Assembly: GCA_028287065.1 (NCBI GenBank)
Contig: JAQBQJ010000079.1
Coordinates: 1-43,324 of the forward strand
Length of the DNA: 43,324 nucleotides
Origin: Labilithrix sp.
Lineage (GTDB): Bacteria; Myxococcota_A; Polyangia; Polyangiales; Polyangiaceae
Reading direction: 5' to 3'
Part shown: piece after piece, positions 5,590 through 25,763 of the stretch
Position numbering within the stretch: position 1 is the stretch's first letter
Layout: every line of letters starts with the position of its first letter
The notes under the pieces: generated by a model
The model's database searches: none
Told to the model about the DNA's origin: nothing
What the model saw: only the letters and a program-made list of their open reading frames with translations
Program-made: the position numbers and the translations under genes

Positions 5590-5877
5590 TCAGTGCGCGC
5601 TGGCGAGCAGCAGCATGCGCTCGGCGAACGCGCCGATCTGCGACCCCATCCAGGGGCCCAGGATCACGAGCGCGGCGACCACGGCGAGGAGCCGGGGGAG
5701 ATGCGCGATCGTCGGATCCTGGATCTGCGAGGCCGCCTGGAACGCGGCCACCACGAGACCGACGACGGCTGCGACGAGCAGCACAGGAAGGACCATCGCG
5801 AGCGAGAGCATCAGCGCATTCTGCGCGTGCTCGACGAGCGCGCTCGCGGAGATCCCGCCGCCCGGGGCCGCCGTCAA
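5590..5877 (-). CDS. sctS: Type III export apparatus protein, SctS/FliQ family
   Basis: This 95-residue protein has two membrane segments (about residues 23-46 and 60-78). The conserved signature between them, FQAASQIQDPTIAHLPRLLAV (about residues 46-66), matches the FliQ/SctS pattern in which QxQ(D/E)xT precedes a Pro-Lys/Arg-Leu segment. In known systems SctS assembles with SctR and SctT into the export gate in the inner membrane. The length equals the family norm (about 85-95). The start is TTG at 5877, one base after the TGA of the lipoprotein gene, which implies coupled translation. No SctR, SctT, SctU, SctV or flagellar gene is in the window, so it is an orphan here. Its role in injectisome or flagellar export is inferred from family only. 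Confidence 0.85.
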   Translation of the reverse strand: MTAAPGGGISASALVEHAQNALMLSLAMVLPVLLVAAVVGLVVAAFQAASQIQDPTIAHLPRLLAVVAALVILGPWMGSQIGAFAERMLLLASAH

Positions 5878-12670: not shown

Positions 12671-15600
12671 TCAGAAAATCGGGCACGACTCGCGCTCGAG
12701 GCAACGATGCGTGCTCGGATGGCTGAGGACGTAGAGGTCCTTGCCCTGCGTCGCCAGGAAGCGAACGAGCAAGTTGTCGTGGTACACGACGTCGTCGAAC
12801 GTCTTGCACGGGTCGCCGTTGACGAACACGTGCTGCCCGCCCGGCTGGATCCACGCGTCGAGCACGCCGAGCAGCGGCGCATTCGAGATCCAGCCTCGAT
12901 CGTCCGATGCGAACGGCTGGCCCGAGAGCCGCGGCGCCCATGCCTGCGCGAGCGAGCCAGCGTCCGTCGCGCGAACGTTCGCCTGGCGCGCCAGACGGAG
13001 CGGCATCGCCGGACGCGGCGCGTCCCACGCGTTCGCGCCTTCCGCCAGCCAGTCGGCGTCGAACAGCGCATGCGAGCACTCGCTCGGCGACGGCGAGCTC
13101 GTGCACGTCGCGCCCGTGTTGTAGTTCGGCTTGCACGTCGGGCCGCCGCGCGTCCGCTCGAGACGCGCAATGCCTTCGAGGCTGTGCGAGTCGATCAACA
13201 CTTGATTGGGCGTCTTTCCGCCGAGCGACGTCCACAGCTCCAGCGGGGTCGCGTACTCGGCCCACTCGGGATGCGTCGTCGCGAAGCTCGGCGGAAGGAA
13301 CGGCAGCGCGCCCGCCGCCCGCGCGAACGCGTAACCCGTGCCCGCCGGCACCATGGGATCGCCCGCCGTGTTCCACGCCACGATCGCGCGCGGCGGCAAC
13401 GGTGAGCCGTCGACGTTCGGCGCAACGCGCATCGCGTAGTACGGCGCGAAGTTGATCGGGTCGCTCGAGTCGATGCCCGCCTGGACGAGGTTGAACAGCC
13501 GCCGCGCCTCCGGCGACTGCCGCGTGAGACCAAGGCCTTCCTGCGGCGCCACCAGCAGCGATCCGACCGGATAGAACTGATCGCGGAACTGCTGGCAGCC
13601 GCGGTTCTCGCCGCTAGGGTTCGCCGCGTCGTCGAGCACGAGGGCGCCCGCGAACGCGGCGTCGCACGTCTTCGTTTCGTCGGCGACGACCGACGGCTGC
13701 ACCAGCGCCTGCTCGAACCTGTAGATGCGTCGCCCCACCGGCGCGACCGGGCCGACCTCGCAGCCCTTGTACGAGAGCACCGCGTCGGGCGCGTCGTAGA
13801 TCTGGATGTCCAGACGATCGCCGATGTCCGCCGGGATCGGCACGCGGAAGCGCCCTTCGCCGGACGTGCGCGCGCAACGCCGCTCGCCGTTGCGCAAGTT
13901 CTCGAGCACGACCGTCTTGCCGCGATCGAGCTCGGTGGGCGTGAGGCACGCGATCTCGACCTCACGCGAGATCGTGAGATCGTTGATCACGAAGCGCACC
14001 GAGCGTTGATCGCCCGTGCACTGCGTCTGAGCGACGTCGTTCTTCTTCCCGATCGCGCTTGCGGGCACGCCCACGATCAGCGGGCTGAAGACCTGCTCGA
14101 GCACGGAGTCCGGCACGAGGGCCGAGCGCGTGGCGACGTCCGTGAGGCCGCCTCCACCCGAGATCGGCGCTGCCGCCGTCACGTTGGGATCGACCGCGCC
14201 GTGCACCATCGCGAGCACGCCGCCGAAGGAGTTGCCCGACGTGGTGATGGCGACGTCGGGACCGCCGAGGTCCGGTACGCCGTCGCCGTCGAAGTCGCCC
14301 GCCATGTCCGGCTGCCCGTCGGCGTCGTAGTCCTGCGTCCCGAGGTGGCGATCGAACGCACGCAGCACGCGCGTCGCCTGCATCTCGTCGACCACCGACT
14401 GCCGGATGTTGTCGCGCGAGTGGAAGATGTGCGCGGTCCACAGGAGGCCGCCGGAGTCCGGCTCGCCGTCGCCGTTCAGGTCCTGCTGCCGGCCGGTCGT
14501 GATTGCCTTTGCCCACGGCTCGAGGCACGTCGCGCCGAGGAAGGCCTCGGCGATCGCCTGCAGTCCCTGGTTCAGGAACAAGCCGTGGCCGGGCATGTTG
14601 ATGCCCATCATCGCGACGCCCTGCTTCGCGAAGTAGCCCGCGCGGATGATGATCTCGTCGGCGTGCAGCGTCGTTCCGTGCGCCCAGACCGTCGTGGGGA
14701 AGGGCTGCGCGCCGTGCTCCTTCGTCGGCACGCTGATCCAGAACTGCACCGTGTCGCGCGCGACGCGTCCCTGGCCGGTCTTGAAATCGACGTCGAACCT
14801 GCCGTCGGGGTCCTCGTGCTTCGGATCGCCCATGAAATAGGGCGATTCGAAGCTTCCGACGACGAAGTGATCGACATTGTCGAGGCTCTGGAGCAGTCGC
14901 TCGAGCTCCATGCCGGAGAGGCCGAGCGCCTTCTCGAGGAGCTGGCCGAGCGAGGTCCGCGCGTTCTTGACGCGAACGATGTACGGCGACTGCCGGTGCG
15001 GCGCGCACTTCGGGAGCGTCTCGACGGTGCCCGGCACCTCGTCGGCGGGATCGAGCGTGGTGCCGACCGCGCGCGCTGCCGTCGCGACGGGCGGGAACTC
15101 GCTCGCGAGCCGCGCGAACGGACCCTTGCCGTGCATGCCATCACGGAGGACGCGCATGTCGTCGTAGACCGGCTGCGTCGTGAACGTCCACAGGAACGCC
15201 ACGTGATCGAGGCCCGTGCCGGCCACGTCGCCGTAGTACGCGCGACGCGCGGGGTCGGACAGGATCGCGCGCACGCGCTCGGCGCCGGCGCGCTGTTGTG
15301 CATGATGCACGGATTCGAACGGCGACTTCACCGGCTGCCCGGCGTGGTCCTTCAGGCGATCGGTGAGCACCACCGCGTATTCGCGCTTCTCCTCGAGCGG
15401 CACGACGGGGCGCAGGATGAGCGTGTCACTCTCGCGCTCGTACCAGGGGATGACGTCCTCGATGCGCGCGTTCTTGCCGGTCGGACGCAGCACGTTCGGG
15501 TGATCGAGGACGCCGTCGAAGTCGGTGTCGAGCTCGGGCCGGTATGCGCCGCGCGGCAGGCCGGCGCCCTCCTCGACGGTCTCGAAGAGGAGCGAGTCCT

Positions 15601-16135
15601 CGGACGCGCGCGGATCGTTCGCCCAGTACCTGTCGCGATCGACCAGCGCGAGCGGAAAATTGCCCTTCCCCATGTCGAGGACGACCGGGATGCCGGTGGT
15701 GAGATCGACGATGTAGAACGGATCGTCCGCGGGATCGTAGTCGGCGGTCCGCTGCGCGACGGCTTCGAGATCGATCGCCGTGTCGTCGGTCGTCTTGTTC
15801 GCGAAGGCGACGGTGATCGGCGCGAACGTGCCCCAGCCCTCGAGCGAATTGAAGCCCTCGCGCGCGGCGGTCTCGAGACGCGTGGGCGCGACGAGGCTCA
15901 CGTTGATGCGCCGCCCGGTGCGGCTCGTCGGATCGGCGAACGTGGCGACGTCGTTCGGCTGCGGGATCTCGGGCAGCGGCCGGCGCGACGTATCGAAGAC
16001 GATCTCGGGGCCGTCGCCCGCGGGCGTCCTGCGCGCGCCGTCGGGGGCGGTGTCGATCGCGCATCCCGGCGCGATGGTGGTCGCGATGGCGCACGCGACG
16101 ACGACGCCGAACAGCCGCGAGACACGCTCTTGCAT
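12671..16135 (-). CDS. Giant VolA-type lipase-like lipoprotein (paralogue A)
   Basis: The 1154-residue product has a signal peptide and a Cys at about residue 25 (APGCAIDTAPDG), so it is probably a lipoprotein. The lipobox is imperfect. The N-terminal region (PNDVATFADPTSRTGRRINV, later RESDTLILRPVVPLEEKREY) resembles the bacterial virulence-factor lipase N-terminal domain. An alpha/beta-hydrolase core follows, with HGTTLHADEI, MPGHG and the nucleophile elbow TSGNSFGGVL. Calcium-binding DxDxDG loops are inserted (DLNGDGEPDSGG, DYDADGQPD, DFDGDGVPD). The C-terminal third has many Cys. An ATG at 16153 would add six residues. It is a clear paralogue of 22302-25763, collinear over its whole length, and probably acts on lipids or polyesters at the cell surface. 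Confidence 0.85.
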   Translation of the reverse strand: MQERVSRLFGVVVACAIATTIAPGCAIDTAPDGARRTPAGDGPEIVFDTSRRPLPEIPQPNDVATFADPTSRTGRRINVSLVAPTRLETAAREGFNSLEGWGTFAPITVAFANKTTDDTAIDLEAVAQRTADYDPADDPFYIVDLTTGIPVVLDMGKGNFPLALVDRDRYWANDPRASEDSLLFETVEEGAGLPRGAYRPELDTDFDGVLDHPNVLRPTGKNARIEDVIPWYERESDTLILRPVVPLEEKREYAVVLTDRLKDHAGQPVKSPFESVHHAQQRAGAERVRAILSDPARRAYYGDVAGTGLDHVAFLWTFTTQPVYDDMRVLRDGMHGKGPFARLASEFPPVATAARAVGTTLDPADEVPGTVETLPKCAPHRQSPYIVRVKNARTSLGQLLEKALGLSGMELERLLQSLDNVDHFVVGSFESPYFMGDPKHEDPDGRFDVDFKTGQGRVARDTVQFWISVPTKEHGAQPFPTTVWAHGTTLHADEIIIRAGYFAKQGVAMMGINMPGHGLFLNQGLQAIAEAFLGATCLEPWAKAITTGRQQDLNGDGEPDSGGLLWTAHIFHSRDNIRQSVVDEMQATRVLRAFDRHLGTQDYDADGQPDMAGDFDGDGVPDLGGPDVAITTSGNSFGGVLAMVHGAVDPNVTAAAPISGGGGLTDVATRSALVPDSVLEQVFSPLIVGVPASAIGKKNDVAQTQCTGDQRSVRFVINDLTISREVEIACLTPTELDRGKTVVLENLRNGERRCARTSGEGRFRVPIPADIGDRLDIQIYDAPDAVLSYKGCEVGPVAPVGRRIYRFEQALVQPSVVADETKTCDAAFAGALVLDDAANPSGENRGCQQFRDQFYPVGSLLVAPQEGLGLTRQSPEARRLFNLVQAGIDSSDPINFAPYYAMRVAPNVDGSPLPPRAIVAWNTAGDPMVPAGTGYAFARAAGALPFLPPSFATTHPEWAEYATPLELWTSLGGKTPNQVLIDSHSLEGIARLERTRGGPTCKPNYNTGATCTSSPSPSECSHALFDADWLAEGANAWDAPRPAMPLRLARQANVRATDAGSLAQAWAPRLSGQPFASDDRGWISNAPLLGVLDAWIQPGGQHVFVNGDPCKTFDDVVYHDNLLVRFLATQGKDLYVLSHPSTHRCLERESCPIF

Positions 16136-16216: not shown

Positions 16217-18421
16217 ATGCGCTCGCCCGCGATCCGCCTCGCGATCACCCTGCTCCTGCCCCTGCTCGTCGTCCTCGGGGGCGAGCACGTGCTCTTGCCG
16301 GGTATGGAGGACCTCTGCCATCAGCTCACGCGAAGCGGCAGCGACTTCCTTCGCTTCGACCAATCGAACCTCTCCGTGTTCGCGCTCGGCATCGCGCCGG
16401 TGATGACGGCGTACGGGCTCGTCGAGCTCGCGGCGTTCCTCGTGCCGCGATGGGCACGCCTGCGTCACGGAAATCCGGAGGGCCGCGCGAAGCTCGAGCG
16501 AACCGCGCGCGTCGTCGCGATCGTGCTTGCCGCGTTGCAAGGGTGGGGCGTCGCGCAGAGCCTGTCCGCGCTCCGCACCTCCGACGTCTTCGGGATCGTC
16601 GCGGACCTGCCTTCGCCGCTCATCGTCGTCGCCACGCTGATCGGAGGCGTGTGCGTGCAGATCGTCGTCGCGCAGCTCATCTCGCGGCAGGGGATCGCCA
16701 ACGGGTACGTCCTCCTCACGGTCGTCGAGGCGCTCGCGGGGTTGCGGGGGACCTTCGTCCCGCGGCTCGAGAGGGCCCGCCTGCTCGGCACGCTCGAGAC
16801 GCGGCATGTCGCGCTGATGGTAGCCGTCGTCGCGCTGCCCGCGGCGGCGACGTGGCTCGCGCTGCGCGGAGGCGATCGCACGCGCGCGCCGGCCGACCCG
16901 GTGAGCAAGACGAAGAATGCTTCGGCCGCGCCGTATCGCGCCGCTCGCGCGCTCGCGGTGTCGCCGTGGGTCCCGGTTCCTTCGAGCTCGATCTCTCCTT
17001 ATCCCGTCGCGCTCGCGGTTGTTGGCCTGCCCGCCACGCTCGCGCTGGTGCTCCACCTGGGGCGCGGAACGCTCGACGCGACGAACGCGCTCTACGAGCG
17101 GCTCCCGTACACCGTGGCGGTGGCCGTGCTCACGCTCGTTGTCGCGTTCGTCTTCGCGCGCCTGCTGCATCGACCGCAGGAGATGACCGAAGTCGCAACT
17201 CGAGTCGGCCTCGCCGGCGGTGAAGAGCAGACCGACGTGGCGCGCGCGGCGCTGCGTGCGACGGCGCTGCCGACGCTGTTGTTCTTCGCGACGCTGATCG
17301 CGGCGGCGACCGCGAGCAGCGCGCTTCCGGCCGGACCCTCGGTGATCTTCGTGCCGCTGCTCGTCGCCGTCGTGATGGATGCGACCACCAGTCTGCGCAC
17401 GTCCTCGCTCGTACCGGTGTGGCAAGAGCGCCGCGCCTCCGCGGTACCGGTCGTGCGCGCCGTCCTCGCCGCCGAGGGCATCGAGTCATCCGTGCGCGGG
17501 CTCGGCGTCCTCTCGCTGCTGCAGGCGTTCGCGCCTTATGCGCCCGCCGAGATCGTCGTCGCCGAGGTCGATGCCGCCCGCGCGACGTCGGTCCTCCGCC
17601 ACGTCTTCCTCGGCGAGAGGCGCGACCTGGAAGGGGAGCGTGGCGGAGAGCCGATCGCCGACGGCGACGCGCCTGCTGCGTGGACGCCGGCGCGCCGCGT
17701 GCTCGGCCTGGCATCGACGACTCTCTTCGCGCTCGTGGCCGTCGTGTCCGCGACGGTCGCCCCGCATCGCGAGCTCGTTGCAAAGGAGGCGCGCGGTCGC
17801 CTCGAGGTCGTGCGCGTCGCGGACGACGAGGACGTCTTCGGCAGGATGGATGACAAGGACGTGCCGGAGGGCATCGAGCTGCGGTTCGAGAACGTCCCGC
17901 TCGGGCAGGGCCACATGCAAAGGGTGTACTTTGCACGCGTAGAAATACGCGAGCGCGAGCCATACTCGTCGGCGGCGGCACGTCTGCGGCGATGGACCGA
18001 CACGATCGCGCTGCCCGCGGGGACGCAGATCGCTCTCGCACCGGTCGACGAGATCGACGAGGACACCCTGAAGAGCCGTCGCGTCGGCATACGGACGTTC
18101 ATCGTGCGCGGAAGCCCGATCATCACGACGGAGGACGTCGTCGAGGCGATGCCGTCGATCAACACGATGAACGGAACTCGAGAGGTCTACGTGGCGGTCA
18201 CGCTCTCGGAGGCGGCGAGCGAGAAGTTCCGCCTCGCGACGCGCGAGTACGTGCAGCGCCGCATCGCGATCGTCGTCGACGGACAGATCGACTCTGCGCC
18301 CGTGGTACGGACGGAAATCGGCGGCGGTCGCCTCAGCATCACGATGGGCGCCGGCGATCCGGACGTCCAGCTCGTGCAGGCGAAGGCGCTGGCCAAGAGC
18401 CTCGGAGGTAGTCAGCGATGA
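16217..18421 (+). CDS. SecY-like channel fused to DUF2007-like and SecD P1-like domains
   Basis: The 734-residue protein has three parts. Residues 1-400 are a divergent SecY: HVLLPGMED (cf. IPLPGID), SVFALGIAPVMTAYGLVELA, GNPEGRAKLERTARVVAIVL, ISRQGIANGYVLL (cf. ITERGIGNGISL), SSSISPYPVALAV, and LPYTVAVAVL leading into FARLLHRPQEM. Residues about 397-465 resemble DUF2007 (PVVRAVLAAEGIESSV, EIVVAEVDAARATSVL). A membrane segment lies at 497-515. Residues about 595-734 match the SecD P1 periplasmic domain (ITTEDVVEAM, LSEAASEKFRLATRE, RRIAIVVDGQIDSAPVV, IGGGRLSITMG). The ATG at 16217 is used; 16196 is an alternative. The stop overlaps the next start (ATGA). I infer an accessory translocon carrying its own SecD-type module; canonical Sec genes are absent here. 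Confidence 0.87.
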   Translation: MRSPAIRLAITLLLPLLVVLGGEHVLLPGMEDLCHQLTRSGSDFLRFDQSNLSVFALGIAPVMTAYGLVELAAFLVPRWARLRHGNPEGRAKLERTARVVAIVLAALQGWGVAQSLSALRTSDVFGIVADLPSPLIVVATLIGGVCVQIVVAQLISRQGIANGYVLLTVVEALAGLRGTFVPRLERARLLGTLETRHVALMVAVVALPAAATWLALRGGDRTRAPADPVSKTKNASAAPYRAARALAVSPWVPVPSSSISPYPVALAVVGLPATLALVLHLGRGTLDATNALYERLPYTVAVAVLTLVVAFVFARLLHRPQEMTEVATRVGLAGGEEQTDVARAALRATALPTLLFFATLIAAATASSALPAGPSVIFVPLLVAVVMDATTSLRTSSLVPVWQERRASAVPVVRAVLAAEGIESSVRGLGVLSLLQAFAPYAPAEIVVAEVDAARATSVLRHVFLGERRDLEGERGGEPIADGDAPAAWTPARRVLGLASTTLFALVAVVSATVAPHRELVAKEARGRLEVVRVADDEDVFGRMDDKDVPEGIELRFENVPLGQGHMQRVYFARVEIREREPYSSAAARLRRWTDTIALPAGTQIALAPVDEIDEDTLKSRRVGIRTFIVRGSPIITTEDVVEAMPSINTMNGTREVYVAVTLSEAASEKFRLATREYVQRRIAIVVDGQIDSAPVVRTEIGGGRLSITMGAGDPDVQLVQAKALAKSLGGSQR

Positions 18422-19035
18422 ACGAGCTCGCGACGAGCGACACGAAGACGCGTGTGGCCGCGGCGATCACCGCGATCGAGAAGGAGACCTCCGCCGAGAT
18501 CGTCGTGATGATGCGCCCCCTGTCCGGCACGTACCGGCACGCCGACCTGCTCGCCGGCGCCGTGACGGCGCTCGCGTACCTCTGCGTGTTCCTCTATCAC
18601 CCCGAGCCTTTCGACTTCACGTACTTCCCGCTCGAGCAGGCCGCCGTGTTCGCGCTGGCGGCGCTCGCGTGCTCGCGGCTGCCATCGCTCCGGCGCGCGC
18701 TCTCTGGCCGGAAGACGCGCGAGAAGAACGTGCAGACTGCAGCCAAAGCGGCGTTCGTCGATCGCGGCATGAGCAAGACGCGGTCGCGGACGGGCGTGCT
18801 CGTGTACGTCTCGGCGTTCGAGCGCGATGTCGCGGTGGTCCTCGACGTCGGGCTGGATGCCGCCGCGCTCGGCGAGCCGCATGCGCGCGCCGTCGAGGCG
18901 CTCCGCGACGCCGCACGCCGCGGCAGGCGAGACGACTTCGTGAAGGCGCTCGAGGACATGGGGGCGCGGCTCGCGGAGATCGACCCGATCGACGAGGACG
19001 ACGTCGACGAGCTCCCGAACGAGGTCGCGGCATGA
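18418..19035 (+). CDS. TPM-domain membrane protein
   Basis: The 205-residue protein overlaps its neighbours at both ends by ATGA. The N-terminus (TRVAAAITAIEKETSAEIVV) and the segment SRTGVLVYVSAFERDVAVVLDVGL match the two halves of the TPM (DUF477, Psb32/phosphatase-like) domain. They are split by two hydrophobic segments at about residues 42-60 and 69-88, so the domain is interrupted by a membrane hairpin. An acidic C-terminus follows. TPM domains occur in thylakoid Psb32 and in bacterial membrane proteins often encoded beside LemA or Tim44-like proteins. The biochemical role is unsettled. Here it sits between a SecY-like channel and a Tim44-like protein, so a role in assembly or quality control of that complex is inferred. 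Confidence 0.85.
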   Translation: MNELATSDTKTRVAAAITAIEKETSAEIVVMMRPLSGTYRHADLLAGAVTALAYLCVFLYHPEPFDFTYFPLEQAAVFALAALACSRLPSLRRALSGRKTREKNVQTAAKAAFVDRGMSKTRSRTGVLVYVSAFERDVAVVLDVGLDAAALGEPHARAVEALRDAARRGRRDDFVKALEDMGARLAEIDPIDEDDVDELPNEVAA

Positions 19036-20843
19036 GCGCTCGGAGCACGACGCGTGCGCTCCTCGTGACCGGCGCCTTCGTGCTGGTCGCGGCGATCGCG
19101 GCGGCACGACCGGGCGGCGGACAGAGCTTCGGCGGGGGCTCGCGTTCGAGCTCGTCGAGCGGCGGCTCGCGTTCGTCATCCAGCTCGTCGAGCTCGGGCA
19201 GCTTCCGATCGTCGTCGAGCTCATCGAGCTCGTCGGGCGGCTTCCGATCGACGTCCTCGAGCTCGTCCAGCTCGTCGTCGTCGAGCAGCGGCGGCTCGTC
19301 GTTCGGCTCGCGGACGACGACGACGACGACGACGTCGTCGTCGAGCAGCTCCGGCGGCTCTTCGTCGTTCGGTCACACGAGCTCCACGAGCGGGGCGAAC
19401 GGCTCTTACTCGTCGAGCTCGTCCGGCGACACGACGCCGCCGCCGTACACGCCGCCGCTGACCGGCGACGGGTACACGAGCGAAGGCGCGCCGCCGTACG
19501 CGGTGCCGAAGAGCGATCGCCCCGTCACGTTGACGCTGCTCGCGCTCTTCGGTGCGATCGCGTTCGTCGTTCTCGCGCTGATCGCGTATTCGCGCTGGCG
19601 AGCGAATCAGCAGCTCGCGAGCTGGGACGCGAGCGTCGACGACACGCTCGACGCAGAGGTGCGCGCGAAGCGCCACGCCAACGTGATGTCGGCACTGCTC
19701 GCGATCCGCTCCGCCGACGACGCGTTCAGCTTCGTTCTCTTCGAGGACTTCTTGTACGCCCTCTACGCCGAGGTCCACACCGCGCGTGCGACCGGCCGGC
19801 TCGACGGCCTCTCTCCATATCTCTCGACCGAGGCGCAGGCCCAGCTCTCGCGCCTCCCGGCAAGCGGGATCGACGGCGTCGTGATCGGCGGCATGCGCAT
19901 CGAATCGATCCGCACCTCCGCGACGAGGGTGACGCTCGATGCCGTCTTCACCGCGAACCTCGCCGAGACCGACGAGACCGGAGCTCCGGCCGCCGTCTAC
20001 ATGGAGGAGCGCTGGACCCTGTGCCGTGACGCGTCCGCTCGTTCGCGCCCGCCGGAGCGCGCGCGCGTGATCGGGTGCCCGAGCTGCGGCGCGCCGCTGG
20101 ACAAGACGATTGGACAGCAGTGCGGCTATTGCGGCGCGACCTCCAAGCCCGGCGACCACGACTGGTTCGTCGAGAACGTCACCATCGTCGCACGCGAGAA
20201 CCGCGGTCCGATGCTCACTGGCACCACCGAAGAGGTCGGCACCGACTGGCCGACCGTCGTTGCGCCGGACGTGAAGAAGGAGCTCGAGGCGCTACGCTCG
20301 CGCGACCCGGCGTTCTCGTGGCCGGCGTTCGTCGCGCGCGTGGGCGTCGTGTTCTCCGCCTTCCACACGTCGTGGAGCGCACAGGACCTCACCGCGGTGC
20401 GCCCGTATCTCAGTGACAACCTGTACGAGCTCCAGAAGTACTGGGTGAGCGCGTACCTCGAGCAGGGTCTTCACAACAAGACGGAGAACCCGCTCATCGT
20501 CACCGTGCATCTTGCACGTATCACGCGCGACCGCTTCTTCGACGCCGTCACGGTCCGCGTGTTCGCGACCTGCATCGACTACACGACGGACGCGAAGGGC
20601 GCGGTCGTCGCCGGCGATAGCGAACAGCCGCGCGAGTACTCCGAGTACTGGACGTTCATCCGCGGCGCGGGCAAGTCCGCGGCGCCGCGGTCTGACAACG
20701 CGTGCCCGAGCTGCGGCGGCTCACTCGCCGGCATCAACATGGCCGGCGAGTGCAGCCACTGCCGCGTGAAGGTCACGACCGGCGAGTTCGACTGGGTCCT
20801 CTCGCGCATCGAGCAGGACGAGGTCTACGAAGCCGCGGCGTGA
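19032..20843 (+). CDS. Tim44-like protein with two zinc ribbons and a poly-Ser stalk
   Basis: The 603-residue protein begins with a hydrophobic N-terminal segment (residues 8-25). A Ser/Gly/Thr-rich stretch of about 100 residues follows (33-132), then a Pro-rich linker and a membrane helix at 164-187. Two Tim44-like domains follow (about 200-345 and 400-545). The first ends in a ribbon with Cys349, Cys352, Cys364 and Cys367, the second in one with Cys558, Cys561, Cys574 and Cys577. Typical Tim44 features are DFLYALYAEVHTA-type and ESIRT..TRVTLDAVFTA-type segments. In mitochondria Tim44 tethers the import motor to TIM23; bacterial relatives are little studied. The topology would put the Ser-rich part on one side and the Tim44 domains on the other. 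Its stop is one base from that of the convergent serpin gene. Confidence 0.86.
   Translation: MSARSTTRALLVTGAFVLVAAIAAARPGGGQSFGGGSRSSSSSGGSRSSSSSSSSGSFRSSSSSSSSSGGFRSTSSSSSSSSSSSSGGSSFGSRTTTTTTTSSSSSSGGSSSFGHTSSTSGANGSYSSSSSGDTTPPPYTPPLTGDGYTSEGAPPYAVPKSDRPVTLTLLALFGAIAFVVLALIAYSRWRANQQLASWDASVDDTLDAEVRAKRHANVMSALLAIRSADDAFSFVLFEDFLYALYAEVHTARATGRLDGLSPYLSTEAQAQLSRLPASGIDGVVIGGMRIESIRTSATRVTLDAVFTANLAETDETGAPAAVYMEERWTLCRDASARSRPPERARVIGCPSCGAPLDKTIGQQCGYCGATSKPGDHDWFVENVTIVARENRGPMLTGTTEEVGTDWPTVVAPDVKKELEALRSRDPAFSWPAFVARVGVVFSAFHTSWSAQDLTAVRPYLSDNLYELQKYWVSAYLEQGLHNKTENPLIVTVHLARITRDRFFDAVTVRVFATCIDYTTDAKGAVVAGDSEQPREYSEYWTFIRGAGKSAAPRSDNACPSCGGSLAGINMAGECSHCRVKVTTGEFDWVLSRIEQDEVYEAAA
19128..19427 (+). 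repeat. Low-complexity Ser/Gly/Thr-coding tract
   Basis: This is a roughly 300-base stretch of the Tim44-like gene built from imperfect TCG, AGC and GGC codon runs. It encodes Ser clusters separated by Gly-Gly-Ser, Gly-Phe-Arg and Thr7. The mix of Ser codons suggests that the amino-acid composition, rather than recent DNA slippage, is what is kept. Confidence 0.75.
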
Positions 20844-20844
20844 G

Positions 20845-22143
20845 TCACTTCGGGTCGAGGATGCGACCCATGAAGAGGAGCGTCTTCGTCTGGCGGTCGA
20901 CGATGGCGACCACGTAGGGGCGATCGACCTGCATCTTCACGATGTCCACCGGAGGTCCCGCCGACGACGCCGCGTCGATGACGACCGCCGTCGCCGCAGC
21001 GGCTTCGGTGCCGCCCTCGTCGACGGCGAGGAACGTCTGGTGGAACACCTCGGAGATCTGGAGCTCCTCGAGCTGCGCGATGCCGGTGAAGTCGGCACCC
21101 TCGAACGCGTGCTTCATGCCGAGTGACTCGAGCGGCCCTTTCAGCTCGAAGGCCTGGTGCAGCTTCGCCTTCGGGAACGAGAGCCGAACCGGCTTCTCGC
21201 GCAGGCCGGCGAGGACGTCGAGGACCTTCGCTCCGGTGAGTGTCGACTCGAACTCGCCGAACGTGCCCTTCGTGGGTGCGATGACGAGCATCGATACCGC
21301 GCCACCGTCGTACGGCAGCTCGATCGCGTCGAACGCCGCGTCCTTCGTGTGCGCCGCGCTGAGCTCCGCGTTCATCATCGTGACTGGCTTTTCGGTGCCG
21401 TCGAGCGTCGTGAACGGCGCCTGCGCGGTCGCGAGCGGGTCGAACTTCGTCGTCCACGCGGCGTTGAAGTACACCGCGTTGACGAGCACCATCCGCGTGA
21501 GAGCGCGAATGCCGTCCTCGGGGATCAGCTCCTCGATGCGCGACTCGGTCTTTTCCTCGACCCACGAATTGATCGTGCCGCGCGCTGCCTGCGGTGCGCC
21601 CCTGAAGTCGACGACGTTCAGGCCGGCTCCGTAGTTGACGGCGAGCGTGTCGAGGAACGGCGCTTCGAACGCGTAGTTCTTCTGACCCCACACCGAGTTG
21701 ATCACGCTGAGTCGGAACGGCTTGCCGTCCTTGTCGAGCGCGCCTTGCCCGCGGCTCGAGAGCGCGAGGTCGAGATAGTCGAAGCCGCGGTGCAGGCGAT
21801 CGTCAGGCAAGCCGAAATGCAGCGCCTTCTTCATCTCCTCTTTCGTCTCCCCGCGTGCGCCGGCGTACGTCATGGCGAGCGCCGTCGAGATGCTGTGCGG
21901 GCTGAGGAAGACGTCCTTGTCGTGGAATTCCGCCGACGAGCCGACGGCGCGATAGAGGTCGACCGCGAAGTCGGCCTGGTCGCCGGCGAACGTGTCGAGC
22001 TCCGTGGGCGACAGCACCGGAGCGGTGTCGCGCGCGAGAGACGAGCGCACGGTCTCGACCTGCGGCTTGTCCTCGGTCGGAGCCGAACATGCGGTGAGAG
22101 AAGCGACGGCGAGGAGAAGAGCGATGTTCGATTGCTTGATCAT
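20845..22143 (-). CDS. Serpin lipoprotein (putative serine protease inhibitor)
   Basis: The 432-residue protein has a lipoprotein signal with lipobox LTAC (Cys19) and then a full serpin fold. Recognisable pieces are SPHSISTALAMTYAGARGET, NSWVEEKTESRIEELI, LVNAVYFNAAW, FKLS-like RLSFPKAKL, and the C-terminal RPYVVAIVDRQTKTLLFMGRI. The reactive-centre loop has a hinge of small residues (EGGTEAAAATAVV, residues 376-388), as in inhibitory serpins. Counting from Glu376 as P17, the scissile bond would fall near Ala392-Ser393. This predicts elastase- or subtilisin-like targets; the P1 assignment is approximate. Membrane anchoring would place the inhibitor at the cell surface or in the periplasm. Confidence 0.93.
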   Translation of the reverse strand: MIKQSNIALLLAVASLTACSAPTEDKPQVETVRSSLARDTAPVLSPTELDTFAGDQADFAVDLYRAVGSSAEFHDKDVFLSPHSISTALAMTYAGARGETKEEMKKALHFGLPDDRLHRGFDYLDLALSSRGQGALDKDGKPFRLSVINSVWGQKNYAFEAPFLDTLAVNYGAGLNVVDFRGAPQAARGTINSWVEEKTESRIEELIPEDGIRALTRMVLVNAVYFNAAWTTKFDPLATAQAPFTTLDGTEKPVTMMNAELSAAHTKDAAFDAIELPYDGGAVSMLVIAPTKGTFGEFESTLTGAKVLDVLAGLREKPVRLSFPKAKLHQAFELKGPLESLGMKHAFEGADFTGIAQLEELQISEVFHQTFLAVDEGGTEAAAATAVVIDAASSAGPPVDIVKMQVDRPYVVAIVDRQTKTLLFMGRILDPK

Positions 22144-22301: not shown

Positions 22302-25300
22302 TCACGGCTTCATGAAGTCACACGAGCCGATCGCGAGGCAGCCGTGCGTCTTCGGATGGCTCAAGTAGTAGACGTCGCGCCCCTCGGTCGCGAAGAACCT
22401 CGCGGTCAGCGCGTTGCCGTAGGTCGCGAAGTCCCACGCCTTGCACGCGTCGCCGACGTCCCACGTGTGCTGGCCCTTCGGCACGAGATAGTGGTTGAGC
22501 AGGCCGACCACGCGCTCCGACGCCGACCACGCGGTCTCGTCCGGCGCGAAGGGCACGCCGCGCAATCGAGGCTCCCATGCGGCCGCGAGCGTCGAGCTGT
22601 CGCTGACATGCAGCTTCGCGACGCGCGCGAGCCGCAGCGGTACGTCGGGATGCGGTTGATCGTAGGGGAGGCCGCCCTCGCTCACCCAGTCGGCGTCGTA
22701 GAGCGCGTTCTTGCACTCCATCGGATCGATCGTGACCGTCTTCGTGCACGTCGTCGCGTCCGGCTTGTAGTTCGCCTTGCACGCCGGGCCTGCCGTCGTC
22801 TTGCCGAGGCGCGCGACGCCCTCGACCACGGACTGATCGACGAGGAACTGCATCGGCGTGCGCCGTCCCAGCCGCTCGTAGAGCTCGTCGGGGGTCGCGT
22901 AGTCCGCATACTCGGGATAGCGGGCCGCGGCAGACGGCGGGAGGAACGGCACGGCGCCGGCCGCACGCGCGAACGTCACGCCCGATGCAATCTGCACGAA
23001 GTTGTCGCCGACGGTGTTGATGTTCAGCAGCGCATGCGGCGCCACGCGATTGCCGTCCGGGTCGAGGAGCGGCTTGAGCATGTAGTACGGCGCGTACGCG
23101 ATCGGGTCCGCCGGATCGAATGCAGCCTGCGCGAGATCGCGGAAGCGCCGCAGCGACGGCGACTGGCGCCGGAACCCGAAGCCTTCGTTCGGCGCGACGA
23201 GCGCCGAGCCGACCGGGTAGAACACGTCGCGGAACTGCGTGCAGCCGAGCGGCTCGTCGCAGTGGTTCGTGTCGGGCGCCGCGACGTCGAGCGTGTGCAG
23301 CGCGGGCTGCTCCCACGTCGAGATGCGCCGCCCGATCGGGATGTCGCCGTCGAGCAGCTTGCACCCGTCGTACGACTGCACGACGTCCGCCGCGTTGTAG
23401 ATCTGGATGTCGAGCCGGTCGTTCGTGCTGCTCGGGATCGGGACGCGGAAGCGACCGTCCTTCTCGGTGCGAGCGCAGCGGACCTCGCCGTTGTTCACGT
23501 TCTCGACGACGACGGTCATGCGCTCGCCGAGCTCGTCGGGGTTCAAGCACGCGATCTCGAGCTCGTGGTTGTCGTCGCCCTCGTTGACGACGATGCGGAC
23601 GGAGCGCTGGGTCATCGCGCAGCGCGAGCCCATCTGGTGGATGGACTTCTTGTCGTCGTCAGGCCGCTCCGAAGGCGGCACCGCGAAGACCAACGGCCCC
23701 ATCAGCTGCGCGGTCACGGCCTCGACGACGCCGTACGAGCGGAAGCCGACGTCGAGCGCGAGCGAGCCTCCGCCGGACATCGGCGCCGAAGCGACGACGT
23801 ACGGATCGATGCCGCCCTGGATGCCGCTCATGATGCCGCCGAGCGACTCGCCCGCCGCGAAGTAGGGGACGTCGGGTCCGCCGACGTCCGGCGTGCCGTC
23901 GCCGTTGAAGTCGCCGACGGGATCGATCTTGCCGTCGTTGTTGTAGTCGATGGTGCCCGGCTGACCGAACGTGCGCAGGATGCGGAGGGCCTGCATGCCG
24001 TCGAGGATCCCCTGACGGACGTTGTCGCGCGTGTGGAAGATGTGCGCGGTCCACCAGAACCACCCGCTGTCCGGCTTGCCGTCGCCGTTGAGATCGTGCG
24101 CGCGCCCGTTCTTGAACGCGTCGAGGAACGGGACGAGGCAGTTGCCGAACAGCTTGCTCGTCGCGAGCGCCTCGTCGGTCTCGTCGAACACGAGCCCGTG
24201 CTCAGGGTTGTTGTAACCGAACATCGCGATGCCCTGCTTCGCGTAGTCACCCGCGTAGAACAGGATCTCGTCGGAGTGACCGGTCACGCCATGACCCCAG
24301 AACGCCACGGGCGCGGGCTTCGGTGCCTTGTGCGGATCCTTCTTCGGCACCGAGAGGAACCACTGCACGGTGTCGGGGCGCACGTCGCCCTGGCCGGTGC
24401 GGAAGTCGACGTGGAACCTCGTGTCGGGATCGCGCGACGCGGGATCGCCCATCAAATAGGGCGTCTTGTACGTCCCGACGACGATGTAATCGATGTTCTC
24501 GAAGCCCTTCTCGACGGCGATCAGATCGCCGGCGTCGAGCCCGAAGACCTCCTTGAAGAACGTGTGGAACGAGTCCTTGATGTCCGGATCGTTCACCTTC
24601 ACGACGTACGGTGACTGGCCGAAGCCGGCGCGCTTCTGACACACCTCGCTCGAGAGGTCCTGCGGCTCGCCCGCGGGCCTCTGACCGGCGGACTGCTTCA
24701 CGTCGAAGACGGCGGGGTACTCCGTCGCGAAGCGCGCGAACGGGCCCGTGCCGTACAGGCCGTCGCGGAGGAGACGCATGTCCTCGTGGGTGGGTTGCGT
24801 GGTGAACGTCCACGCAAACGCGACGTGATCGAGGCCGGTGCCGGCGATGTCGCCGAAGTAGTTCGCGAGGCGCTTCTCGCGGAGGACGTCCGCCAGGCGC
24901 GCGATTCCTTTGCGCTGCGACGGGTGGTGGATGCTCTCGAACGGCGAGCGGATCGGCTGGCGGTTTCCGCCGCGCAGGCGATCGGTGAGCACGACCGCGT
25001 ACTCCGTCTTTTCGTCGAGCGGCACGACCGGACGCATGATGAGCGTGTCGGTCTCGCGCTCGTACCAGGTGAGGAGGTTGTCGACGCCCGCGATGCCTTT
25101 CGTGCCGAGCGTGTTCGGGTGATCGAGCACGCCGTCGAAGTCGTTGTCGAGGTCGGGTCGGTACGCGGACTGCGGCAGCCCGAGGCCCTCTTCGACGGTC
25201 TCGAACGCGAGGTTGCTCTCGCCCGCCTTCGGGTCGTTCGGGAAGTAGCGGAACGGATCGCGCAGCGTGACCGGGTAGTAGCCGTTGCCCACGTCGACGA

Positions 25301-25763
25301 AGACGGGAAGGCCGGTCGTGAGGTTCACGATGTAGAAGGGGTCGTTCGAGAGATCGTGCTCGTCGCCCTGCATGCGCGAGGCGACGTCCTCGAGATCGAT
25401 CGCGGCCTCGCGCGGGTCGGCGCCGGCTGCGCGATCGAACGCGACGCTGATCGGCGACGAGATCCCCCAGCCCTCCATCGACGTGAAGTCCTCGCGCGCG
25501 TTGCGCTCCATGAAGGTGGGCGCGACGAGGCTGACGTTGATGCGCCGTCCGGTGCGGCTCGTCGGATCGGCGAACGTCGCGAGGTCGTTCGGGAGCGGCA
25601 CCTCGGGGAGCGGCCGATGCGCGACGTCGAACTTCACCATCGGGCCGTCGCCGGCGGGCGTCCGCCGCAGGCCGTCCGGCGCCGTGTCGACTCCGCAGGC
25701 ACCGCCGAACGCGATCACCCCGCAGGTCGAGACGAGAAGAAGGAGGCTCTTCGCGAGAGTCAT
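22302..25763 (-). CDS. Giant VolA-type lipase-like lipoprotein (paralogue B)
   Basis: The 1153-residue product is collinear with 12671-16135, sharing the mature N-terminus (DTAPDG-RRTPAGDGP), the PNDLATFADPTSRTGRRINV segment and all later blocks. The signal peptide ends at GGACGVD, making a lipoprotein likely although the lipobox is not ideal. The nucleophile elbow is GESLGG (AAGESLGGIMSG), and HGVTGHSDEI and NPEHG correspond to the other core loops. Calcium-type loops are DLNGDGKPDSG, DYNNDGKIDPVGDFNGDG and DNDFDGVLD. It is probably a surface hydrolase of lipids or esters; the substrate is unknown. The ATG at 25763 is the only good start. The barrel gene ends 59 bases upstream and may be co-transcribed. 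Confidence 0.87.
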   Translation of the reverse strand: MTLAKSLLLLVSTCGVIAFGGACGVDTAPDGLRRTPAGDGPMVKFDVAHRPLPEVPLPNDLATFADPTSRTGRRINVSLVAPTFMERNAREDFTSMEGWGISSPISVAFDRAAGADPREAAIDLEDVASRMQGDEHDLSNDPFYIVNLTTGLPVFVDVGNGYYPVTLRDPFRYFPNDPKAGESNLAFETVEEGLGLPQSAYRPDLDNDFDGVLDHPNTLGTKGIAGVDNLLTWYERETDTLIMRPVVPLDEKTEYAVVLTDRLRGGNRQPIRSPFESIHHPSQRKGIARLADVLREKRLANYFGDIAGTGLDHVAFAWTFTTQPTHEDMRLLRDGLYGTGPFARFATEYPAVFDVKQSAGQRPAGEPQDLSSEVCQKRAGFGQSPYVVKVNDPDIKDSFHTFFKEVFGLDAGDLIAVEKGFENIDYIVVGTYKTPYLMGDPASRDPDTRFHVDFRTGQGDVRPDTVQWFLSVPKKDPHKAPKPAPVAFWGHGVTGHSDEILFYAGDYAKQGIAMFGYNNPEHGLVFDETDEALATSKLFGNCLVPFLDAFKNGRAHDLNGDGKPDSGWFWWTAHIFHTRDNVRQGILDGMQALRILRTFGQPGTIDYNNDGKIDPVGDFNGDGTPDVGGPDVPYFAAGESLGGIMSGIQGGIDPYVVASAPMSGGGSLALDVGFRSYGVVEAVTAQLMGPLVFAVPPSERPDDDKKSIHQMGSRCAMTQRSVRIVVNEGDDNHELEIACLNPDELGERMTVVVENVNNGEVRCARTEKDGRFRVPIPSSTNDRLDIQIYNAADVVQSYDGCKLLDGDIPIGRRISTWEQPALHTLDVAAPDTNHCDEPLGCTQFRDVFYPVGSALVAPNEGFGFRRQSPSLRRFRDLAQAAFDPADPIAYAPYYMLKPLLDPDGNRVAPHALLNINTVGDNFVQIASGVTFARAAGAVPFLPPSAAARYPEYADYATPDELYERLGRRTPMQFLVDQSVVEGVARLGKTTAGPACKANYKPDATTCTKTVTIDPMECKNALYDADWVSEGGLPYDQPHPDVPLRLARVAKLHVSDSSTLAAAWEPRLRGVPFAPDETAWSASERVVGLLNHYLVPKGQHTWDVGDACKAWDFATYGNALTARFFATEGRDVYYLSHPKTHGCLAIGSCDFMKP

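Follow-up and report, generated by a model that had tools for sequence, protein, structure and literature searches.

Organisation of the locus

The window, as we call the whole stretch of 43,324 nucleotides that was analysed, contains three genes on one strand, P0001 to P0003 (Table 1), which are joined by ATGA overlaps at positions 18418-18421 and 19032-19035. The three reading frames and their overlaps are as given in a preliminary description of this DNA. The overlaps and the common strand make it probable that the genes are co-translated in the window.

Table 1. Coordinates of the three genes and of the domains of P0001 in the window
Feature	Position	Strand	Details
P0001, SecY-DUF2007-TM-SecD_P1 fusion	16217..18421	+	734 aa, single chain
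SecY part of P0001	16373..17191	+	Pfam match, aa 53-325
DUF2007-like domain of P0001	17444..17599	+	aa 410-461, Pfam score just below cut-off
Extra TM helix of P0001	17699..17755	+	aa 495-513, hydropathy; AlphaFold2 helix 493-511, low pLDDT
SecD P1 head subdomain of P0001	18092..18343	+	aa 626-709, Pfam
P0002, TPM-domain protein, two hydrophobic helices	18418..19035	+	205 aa, Pfam
P0003, Ser-rich Tim44 protein, N-terminal and internal hydrophobic helix, zinc-ribbon-like motifs	19032..20843	+	603 aa

In the preliminary description, P0001 combined a SecY channel with a DUF2007-like and a SecD P1-like domain. Both the SecY match (Pfam PF00344, E 1e-20, 74.8 bits against a cut-off of 32.2) and the match to the P1 head (SecDF_P1_head, PF22599, E 2.2e-15, 57 bits against a cut-off of 27) were significant and lay in one chain, confirming these two parts. 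The DUF2007-like domain was also matched (PF09413, E 8e-5), at a score of 23.2 bits that falls just below the cut-off of 25.7. Among solved structures, the P0001 sequence matched SecY (best E 8e-11) and SecDF (2.5e-6), and a profile built from five intact P1 tails matched the SecDF P1 structure 3aqo at 9e-20. A profile search of solved structures with the DUF2007 region gave no match.

Ten SecY helices are expected over approximately residues 8-390 of P0001, and nine were visible in a simple hydropathy scan; a short hydropathy peak was also seen within the DUF2007 stretch. The likeness to SecD (TIGR01129, PF22599) lies in the P1 head, but the SecD-like end of P0001 consists of one helix and P1 only. 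The chain ends after P1, the RND-type membrane half of SecD is absent, and the score against TIGR01129 is 49.9 bits, compared with a cut-off of 244.4. If the C terminus of the SecY part is cytosolic, as in canonical SecY, the DUF2007-like domain would lie in the cytosol, and the extra helix would bring the chain into the periplasm, where P1 would be placed.

An AlphaFold2 model of P0001, built from an alignment of eight rows, had a mean pLDDT of 59.5 and a pTM of 0.52. The better-modelled parts were helices one to five and the DUF2007-like domain, the latter with a pLDDT of 59-89 by 10-residue block. Model quality was poor for P1, which only the row from the window covers, and for the latter half of the SecY body; the assignment of P1 follows the sequence profiles, not the model. 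In a Foldseek search of the PDB, SecY/Sec61 chains occupied ranks 1-24, as expected for a SecY fold. The best of them reached E 8e-7 and 14 had E values of 1e-3 or lower; TMt went up to 0.62, and most rmsd values lay between 6 and 12 A. Matches to PII/CutA-like structures were weak and not significant (E 0.2-0.8, matched region not shown).

TPM and Tim44 genes

The identification of the second gene product as a TPM protein was borne out by a Pfam score above the cut-off (PF04536, 24.2 bits against 22.1). P0003 had been described as a membrane-anchored protein with two Tim44-like domains and two four-Cys ribbons. Tim44 was matched in two stretches (6e-27, 95 bits against a cut-off of 29.6), and a hydrophobic helix is present; the double zinc ribbon, at 18.6 bits, is below its cut-off of 27.3 and is discernible as motifs only. 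P0003 resembles the TimA and Tim44-TimA adaptor families (NF033778, NF033779) in having Tim44 domains behind a hydrophobic helix, but differs in its two Tim44 stretches, its ribbon motifs and its TPM partner, and its scores stay below the thresholds of both (64 against 80 bits for NF033779, 26.8 against 200 for NF033778). No description of a Tim44-like and a TPM domain together was found in the open-licence literature.

The three genes had further been proposed to form a module, which predicts that they occur together in relatives. We compared 58 genomes, the window's own included. SecY and DUF2007 share a frame in six others (G005, G035, G016, G033, G024 and G043), and TPM or Tim44 was found within 10 kb of SecY-DUF2007 at none of these six loci. 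Three of the genomes (G016, G033 and G043) gave no TPM match at E up to 0.01 and no Tim44 match at E up to 1e-4 anywhere. Matches to TPM and Tim44 were both absent also from G037, whose DUF2007-only fragment was left out of the six. Of 41 Tim44 matches, 30 lay no more than 2 kb from a TPM match; these came from 22 genomes, the window's own among them. The other 11 had no TPM match at this distance. Only the pair in the window adjoins a SecY fusion, the other 29 being elsewhere, among them another pair in the window's genome (G000:C199). The pairs of G024 and G006 likewise overlap by four bases.

The trio was rejected as a module on co-occurrence, and TPM-Tim44 is a separate pair. Since the pair is independent and the other six loci have neither gene nearby, the neighbourhood in the window is a local join of two separate units in this lineage, and TPM and Tim44 are probably chance neighbours of P0001. 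The preliminary description had tied its claims to co-occurrence of the three genes and to matches of P0001 to SecY and SecD; on those terms the trio falls and the fusion stands.

A family of SecY paralogues with a DUF2007-like end

P0001 belongs to a group of SecY paralogues, sparsely distributed and for the most part from Myxococcota, that carry a C-terminal DUF2007-like domain. A profile of TM10 and DUF2007, run over 377 sampled genomes of the phylum, gave matches in 38. SecY was present in the same open frame in 17 of the 35 genomes checked, in 14 of them above the cut-off, and absent from that frame in 18. With three genomes already known (G000, G005 and G024), the family occurs in 20 of the 377 sampled genomes as judged by same-frame SecY. 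A profile of the full family matched 333 of the 377, a figure that is not a family count because this profile also picks up canonical SecY in most genomes.

A wider scan of contigs used one degenerate pattern, so that the look outside the phylum was narrow. The family profile matched nine of the ten loci it yielded, three of which belong to genomes already in the profile set; L159 is split over two frames and L160 is partial. These members come from Polyangium sp. 6x1 and 15x6 (Myxococcota, Polyangiaceae by taxonomy), Sandaracinaceae, other MAGs and one Gemmatimonadetes-binned contig. The last, L163, carries SecY with a DUF2007-like end that Pfam does not call, on a contig of 4.6 kb, and may reflect either wider spread or mis-binning. 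The open reading frames of L167 (Rhodobacter viridis) had no family match, and this locus was dropped.

SecY scored above the Pfam cut-off in 14 of 15 family proteins scanned. DUF2007 was picked up in ten of the 15 with E no higher than 1, and above the cut-off in four (P0004, the G033 copy, L161 and L144). It went unreported in the G016 copy (P0007), in L163 and in three proteins of the reverse arrangement described below, where the label comes from the alignment. A four-Cys zinc ribbon is found at the N terminus of nine of 25 aligned members and is lacking in P0001. SecY-DUF2007 occurs without P1 in G024 and G043.

An all-against-all comparison of open reading frames at 32 loci revealed no conserved neighbour gene across genera. 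The family itself was linked across 30 genomes, and all other groups spanned at most four. Many of the shared-neighbour pairs were same-genus blocks. By eye, two of the wider neighbour groups were of two-component type, and others were unrecognised or may be shadow frames.

Two arrangements of the P1 fusion

The arrangement SecY-DUF2007-TM-P1 (C-fusion) was found in six genomes of the window's family (G000, G005, G035, G016, G033 and G313), the copy of G313 being broken by an apparent frameshift. Within the set of 58 genomes, P0001 has full-length matches in four others (G005, G035, G016 and G033). The reverse arrangement, P1-SecY-DUF2007 (N-fusion), was found at three loci elsewhere (G133, G332 and SJ525).

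In a SecY tree made by a quick method, the N-fusions grouped together (SH-aLRT 93) and the C-fusions were placed with unfused copies of the Polyangium group (84), individual placements being unsure because of long branches. This tree held 16 of 19 canonical rows, those of G082, G313 and G269 having been missed by a length and motif filter. L159, L160 and the partial or doubtful copies of G037, G151, G297 and G092 were left out of the trees. With midpoint rooting, seven members lay on the same side as canonical SecY, so the family does not appear as a single clade against it.

In the P1 tree (midpoint-rooted, with the four weak stand-alone rows G394, G380, G137 and G240 left out), the C-fused P1s and two stand-alone P1s (from G369 and G395, genus g14) formed a clade (100/98). 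This clade sits among the SecDs of the same order (100/99). The N-fused P1s lay elsewhere, with other stand-alone P1s (89/94). A single clade for C-fused and N-fused P1s was rejected (p 0.00055), a value weakened because this grouping was put to the test with a first tree already known. It was also rejected after the three nearest stand-alone P1s had been added (p 0.0018). Grouping every P1 outside SecD in a single clade was not rejected (p 0.22), which leaves room for one pool of P1s behind both fusions. Thus the joins to SecY differ between C- and N-fusions, but judging from these trees the P1s may share one stand-alone pool.

The stand-alone SecDF_P1_head proteins of the phylum resemble P0001 in having P1 without the membrane half of SecD, and two of them (from G369 and G395) branch within the C-fused P1s; unlike P0001, the stand-alone proteins are not joined to SecY-DUF2007. 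Seven of them (L212, L217, L218, L219, L220, L225 and L226) are frames of approximately 250-440 aa, some with lipobox-like starts by eye. L216 (G323), from the same genus as the N-fusion of G133, has P1 and the following helix, and SecY is absent from the 5 kb fetched. It is possibly a split or loss of a P1-SecY-DUF2007 fusion.

Conservation and selection

Across the ten pairs of five Polyangium-group copies, dN/dS was 0.37-0.52. This indicates purifying selection on a gene that is kept and yet changes fast. In these copies the zinc ribbon and DUF2007 are approximately 90% identical, and the membrane part 64-69%. The five intact C-fusions gave mean identities of 39% for the P1 head, 36% for DUF2007, 35% for TM2-TM5 and 22-26% for TM6-TM10. 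As DUF2007 is thus scarcely better kept than TM2-TM5 in the C-fusions, strong conservation of the cytosolic part was observed only in the Polyangium group.

The 97 positions that are invariant in 16 canonical SecYs were taken as a reference for 28 family rows. Only 15 of the 97 were kept in at least half of the rows, and 46 were kept in fewer than 10%. Those retained include the prolines of TM2 and TM7 and two glycines of TM5. In the loop before TM9, which we take to be the part of canonical SecY that meets SecA, residues N388, K391, I399, G402, T405 and A406 were kept in fewer than 10% of the 28 rows, in an alignment that is rough at such divergence. With much of this loop lost, the family does not show the conserved cytosolic SecA and ribosome loops of a housekeeping SecY. 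Two acidic residues, E70 in TM2 and D388 at the end of TM10, were invariant in the first seven aligned members. The loss of most SecY-invariant residues, together with the more rapid change in the membrane part, could indicate a body that has ceased to conduct.

Housekeeping Sec components

The preliminary description had called for a search for a second, canonical secY. This gene is present in the window's genome (G000:C451, 1.9e-111), away from P0001 and in a row of ribosomal type, its neighbours being ribosomal-protein-like and adenylate-kinase-like as named by eye, without a family search. Full-strength canonical SecY was found in 32 of 35 genomes of the phylum and was lacking in the assemblies of G332, G240 and G297. 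As canonical SecY coexists with it, P0001 is a paralogue. P0001 shares with canonical SecY (PF00344, TIGR00967) the fold, the Pfam match and motif residues of TM2 and TM5; it differs in sitting away from the canonical gene and in its fused DUF2007-like domain and P1, and scores 57.6 bits against the TIGR00967 equivalog cut-off of 253.6. Of the dedicated device separate from housekeeping Sec that had been suggested, what survives is a SecY paralogue apart from canonical SecY; the trio does not.

Among 13 relatives, each genome had one SecE match and none had a second. In the window's own genome, an assembly that is 72% complete, the SecE search was uninformative (best E 3.6). Full-strength SecA_DEAD was single in 12 of the 13. 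A second, divergent SecA_DEAD (G366:C130:35182-36360, 375 bits) was found only in G366, a genome that carries SecY-DUF2007, and an extra match of 23 bits in G064 is below the cut-off. Apart from the second SecA of G366, no dedicated SecE or SecA was found across the 13 relatives.

Possible function of the fusion

A second, fast-changing SecY copy with a DUF2007-like domain and a SecD P1 head points to a side-branch of the export machinery. To our knowledge, SecY is nearly always a single, slow-changing gene, the known exceptions being SecY2 in Gram-positive bacteria and the copies in plastids. P0001 resembles the accessory SecY2 of Gram-positives (TIGR02920) as an additional, divergent SecY next to the housekeeping copy, but its fusions are different, a second full-strength SecA was found in 1 of 13 relatives, and its TIGR02920 score of 16.7 bits lies below the cut-off (249.6). 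SecA2/SecY2 paralogues are described in PMC12445088. No SecY-DUF2007 or SecY-SecD P1 fusion was found in the open-licence literature among the matches listed, which include PMC8675477, PMC12445088 and PMC9508474, and no report of DUF2007 together with SecY was found in that literature. The SecY ancestry is clear; the fusion architecture and its recurrence look undescribed.

We tentatively favour, at somewhat less than an even chance, a reading of P0001 as a specialised SecY-derived translocase or insertase, a two-sided device with DUF2007 on one side and P1 on the other. The SecY-type body would translocate or insert its substrate without the canonical docking of SecA or ribosomes. On the cytosolic side, DUF2007 would select the substrate or gate the SecY body, acting as adaptor or sensor. 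The tethered P1 head, held above the exit, would take the emerging segment and so replace part of SecD, minus the proton-driven membrane half. Because P1 lacks that half, no energy source is visible. A gated device instead of a translocase or insertase also falls within this reading, and the machine would probably be SecA-independent. In favour of this reading are the SecY match and fold, the recurrence of the P1 link in both arrangements, purifying selection, and coexistence with canonical SecY. Counting against it are the sparse occurrence of the family, the absence of a conserved neighbour across genera, the DUF2007 score of P0001 below the cut-off and the poor model of the latter half of the SecY body. 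It is possible, if rather doubtful, that such SecA-independent translocases or insertases represent, in Gram-negative bacteria, a second class of SecY-based machine, with a P1 receiver and a cytosolic DUF2007 gate or adaptor (with or without the zinc ribbon) built in and fused in opposite arrangements. A SecY paralogue joined to P1 at either end provides a natural single-chain test of the position of P1 on SecY, and of whether P1 works without the proton-driven half of SecD.

The strongest competitor, which we regard as possible but on the unlikely side, is a SecY-derived regulator, whose non-conducting body would associate with housekeeping SecYEG, SecE or SecDF and modulate its activity. DUF2007 would then be a sensor of a ligand or of stress, for which the non-significant PII/CutA-like matches would fit a ligand-binding fold, and P1 would act as a decoy for SecDF or for SecDF substrates. 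The disappearance of most SecY-invariant residues, the higher conservation of the zinc ribbon and DUF2007 than of other parts in the Polyangium-group copies, and the scarcity of a second SecE (0/13) or a second full-strength SecA (1/13) are all in keeping with regulation. The retained TM2 and TM7 prolines and TM5 glycines speak against it, and a pure regulator has no obvious need for a P1 joined in two arrangements.

Transport of a small molecule, ion or lipid by the membrane body, or a body that merely scaffolds DUF2007 and P1, appears improbable. The fast change of the membrane part and the invariant acidic residues E70 and D388 would suit it, but we know of no SecY-family member that carries non-protein cargo, and in SecD P1 is a protein-export domain. 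Least probable of all is an export device in which the SecY-P1 fusion, TPM and Tim44 proteins act together: Tim44 works at a protein-import channel of mitochondria, and the genes overlap on one strand in the window, but TPM and Tim44 are missing from the surroundings of all six other fusions and from half of those genomes, and nearly all TPM-Tim44 pairs lie away from SecY fusions.

Other genes of the window

A bacterial serpin gene (PF00079, 5e-104) at 20845-22143 on the minus strand adjoins the Tim44 gene. Two paralogues on the minus strand, of 1154 aa (12671-16135) and 1153 aa (22302-25763) and 52% identical, flank P0001-P0003 and the serpin gene, as if these had been inserted between tandem copies. 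An export protein similar to FliQ/SctS (PF01313, 1e-23) is encoded at window positions 5590-5877, also on the minus strand.
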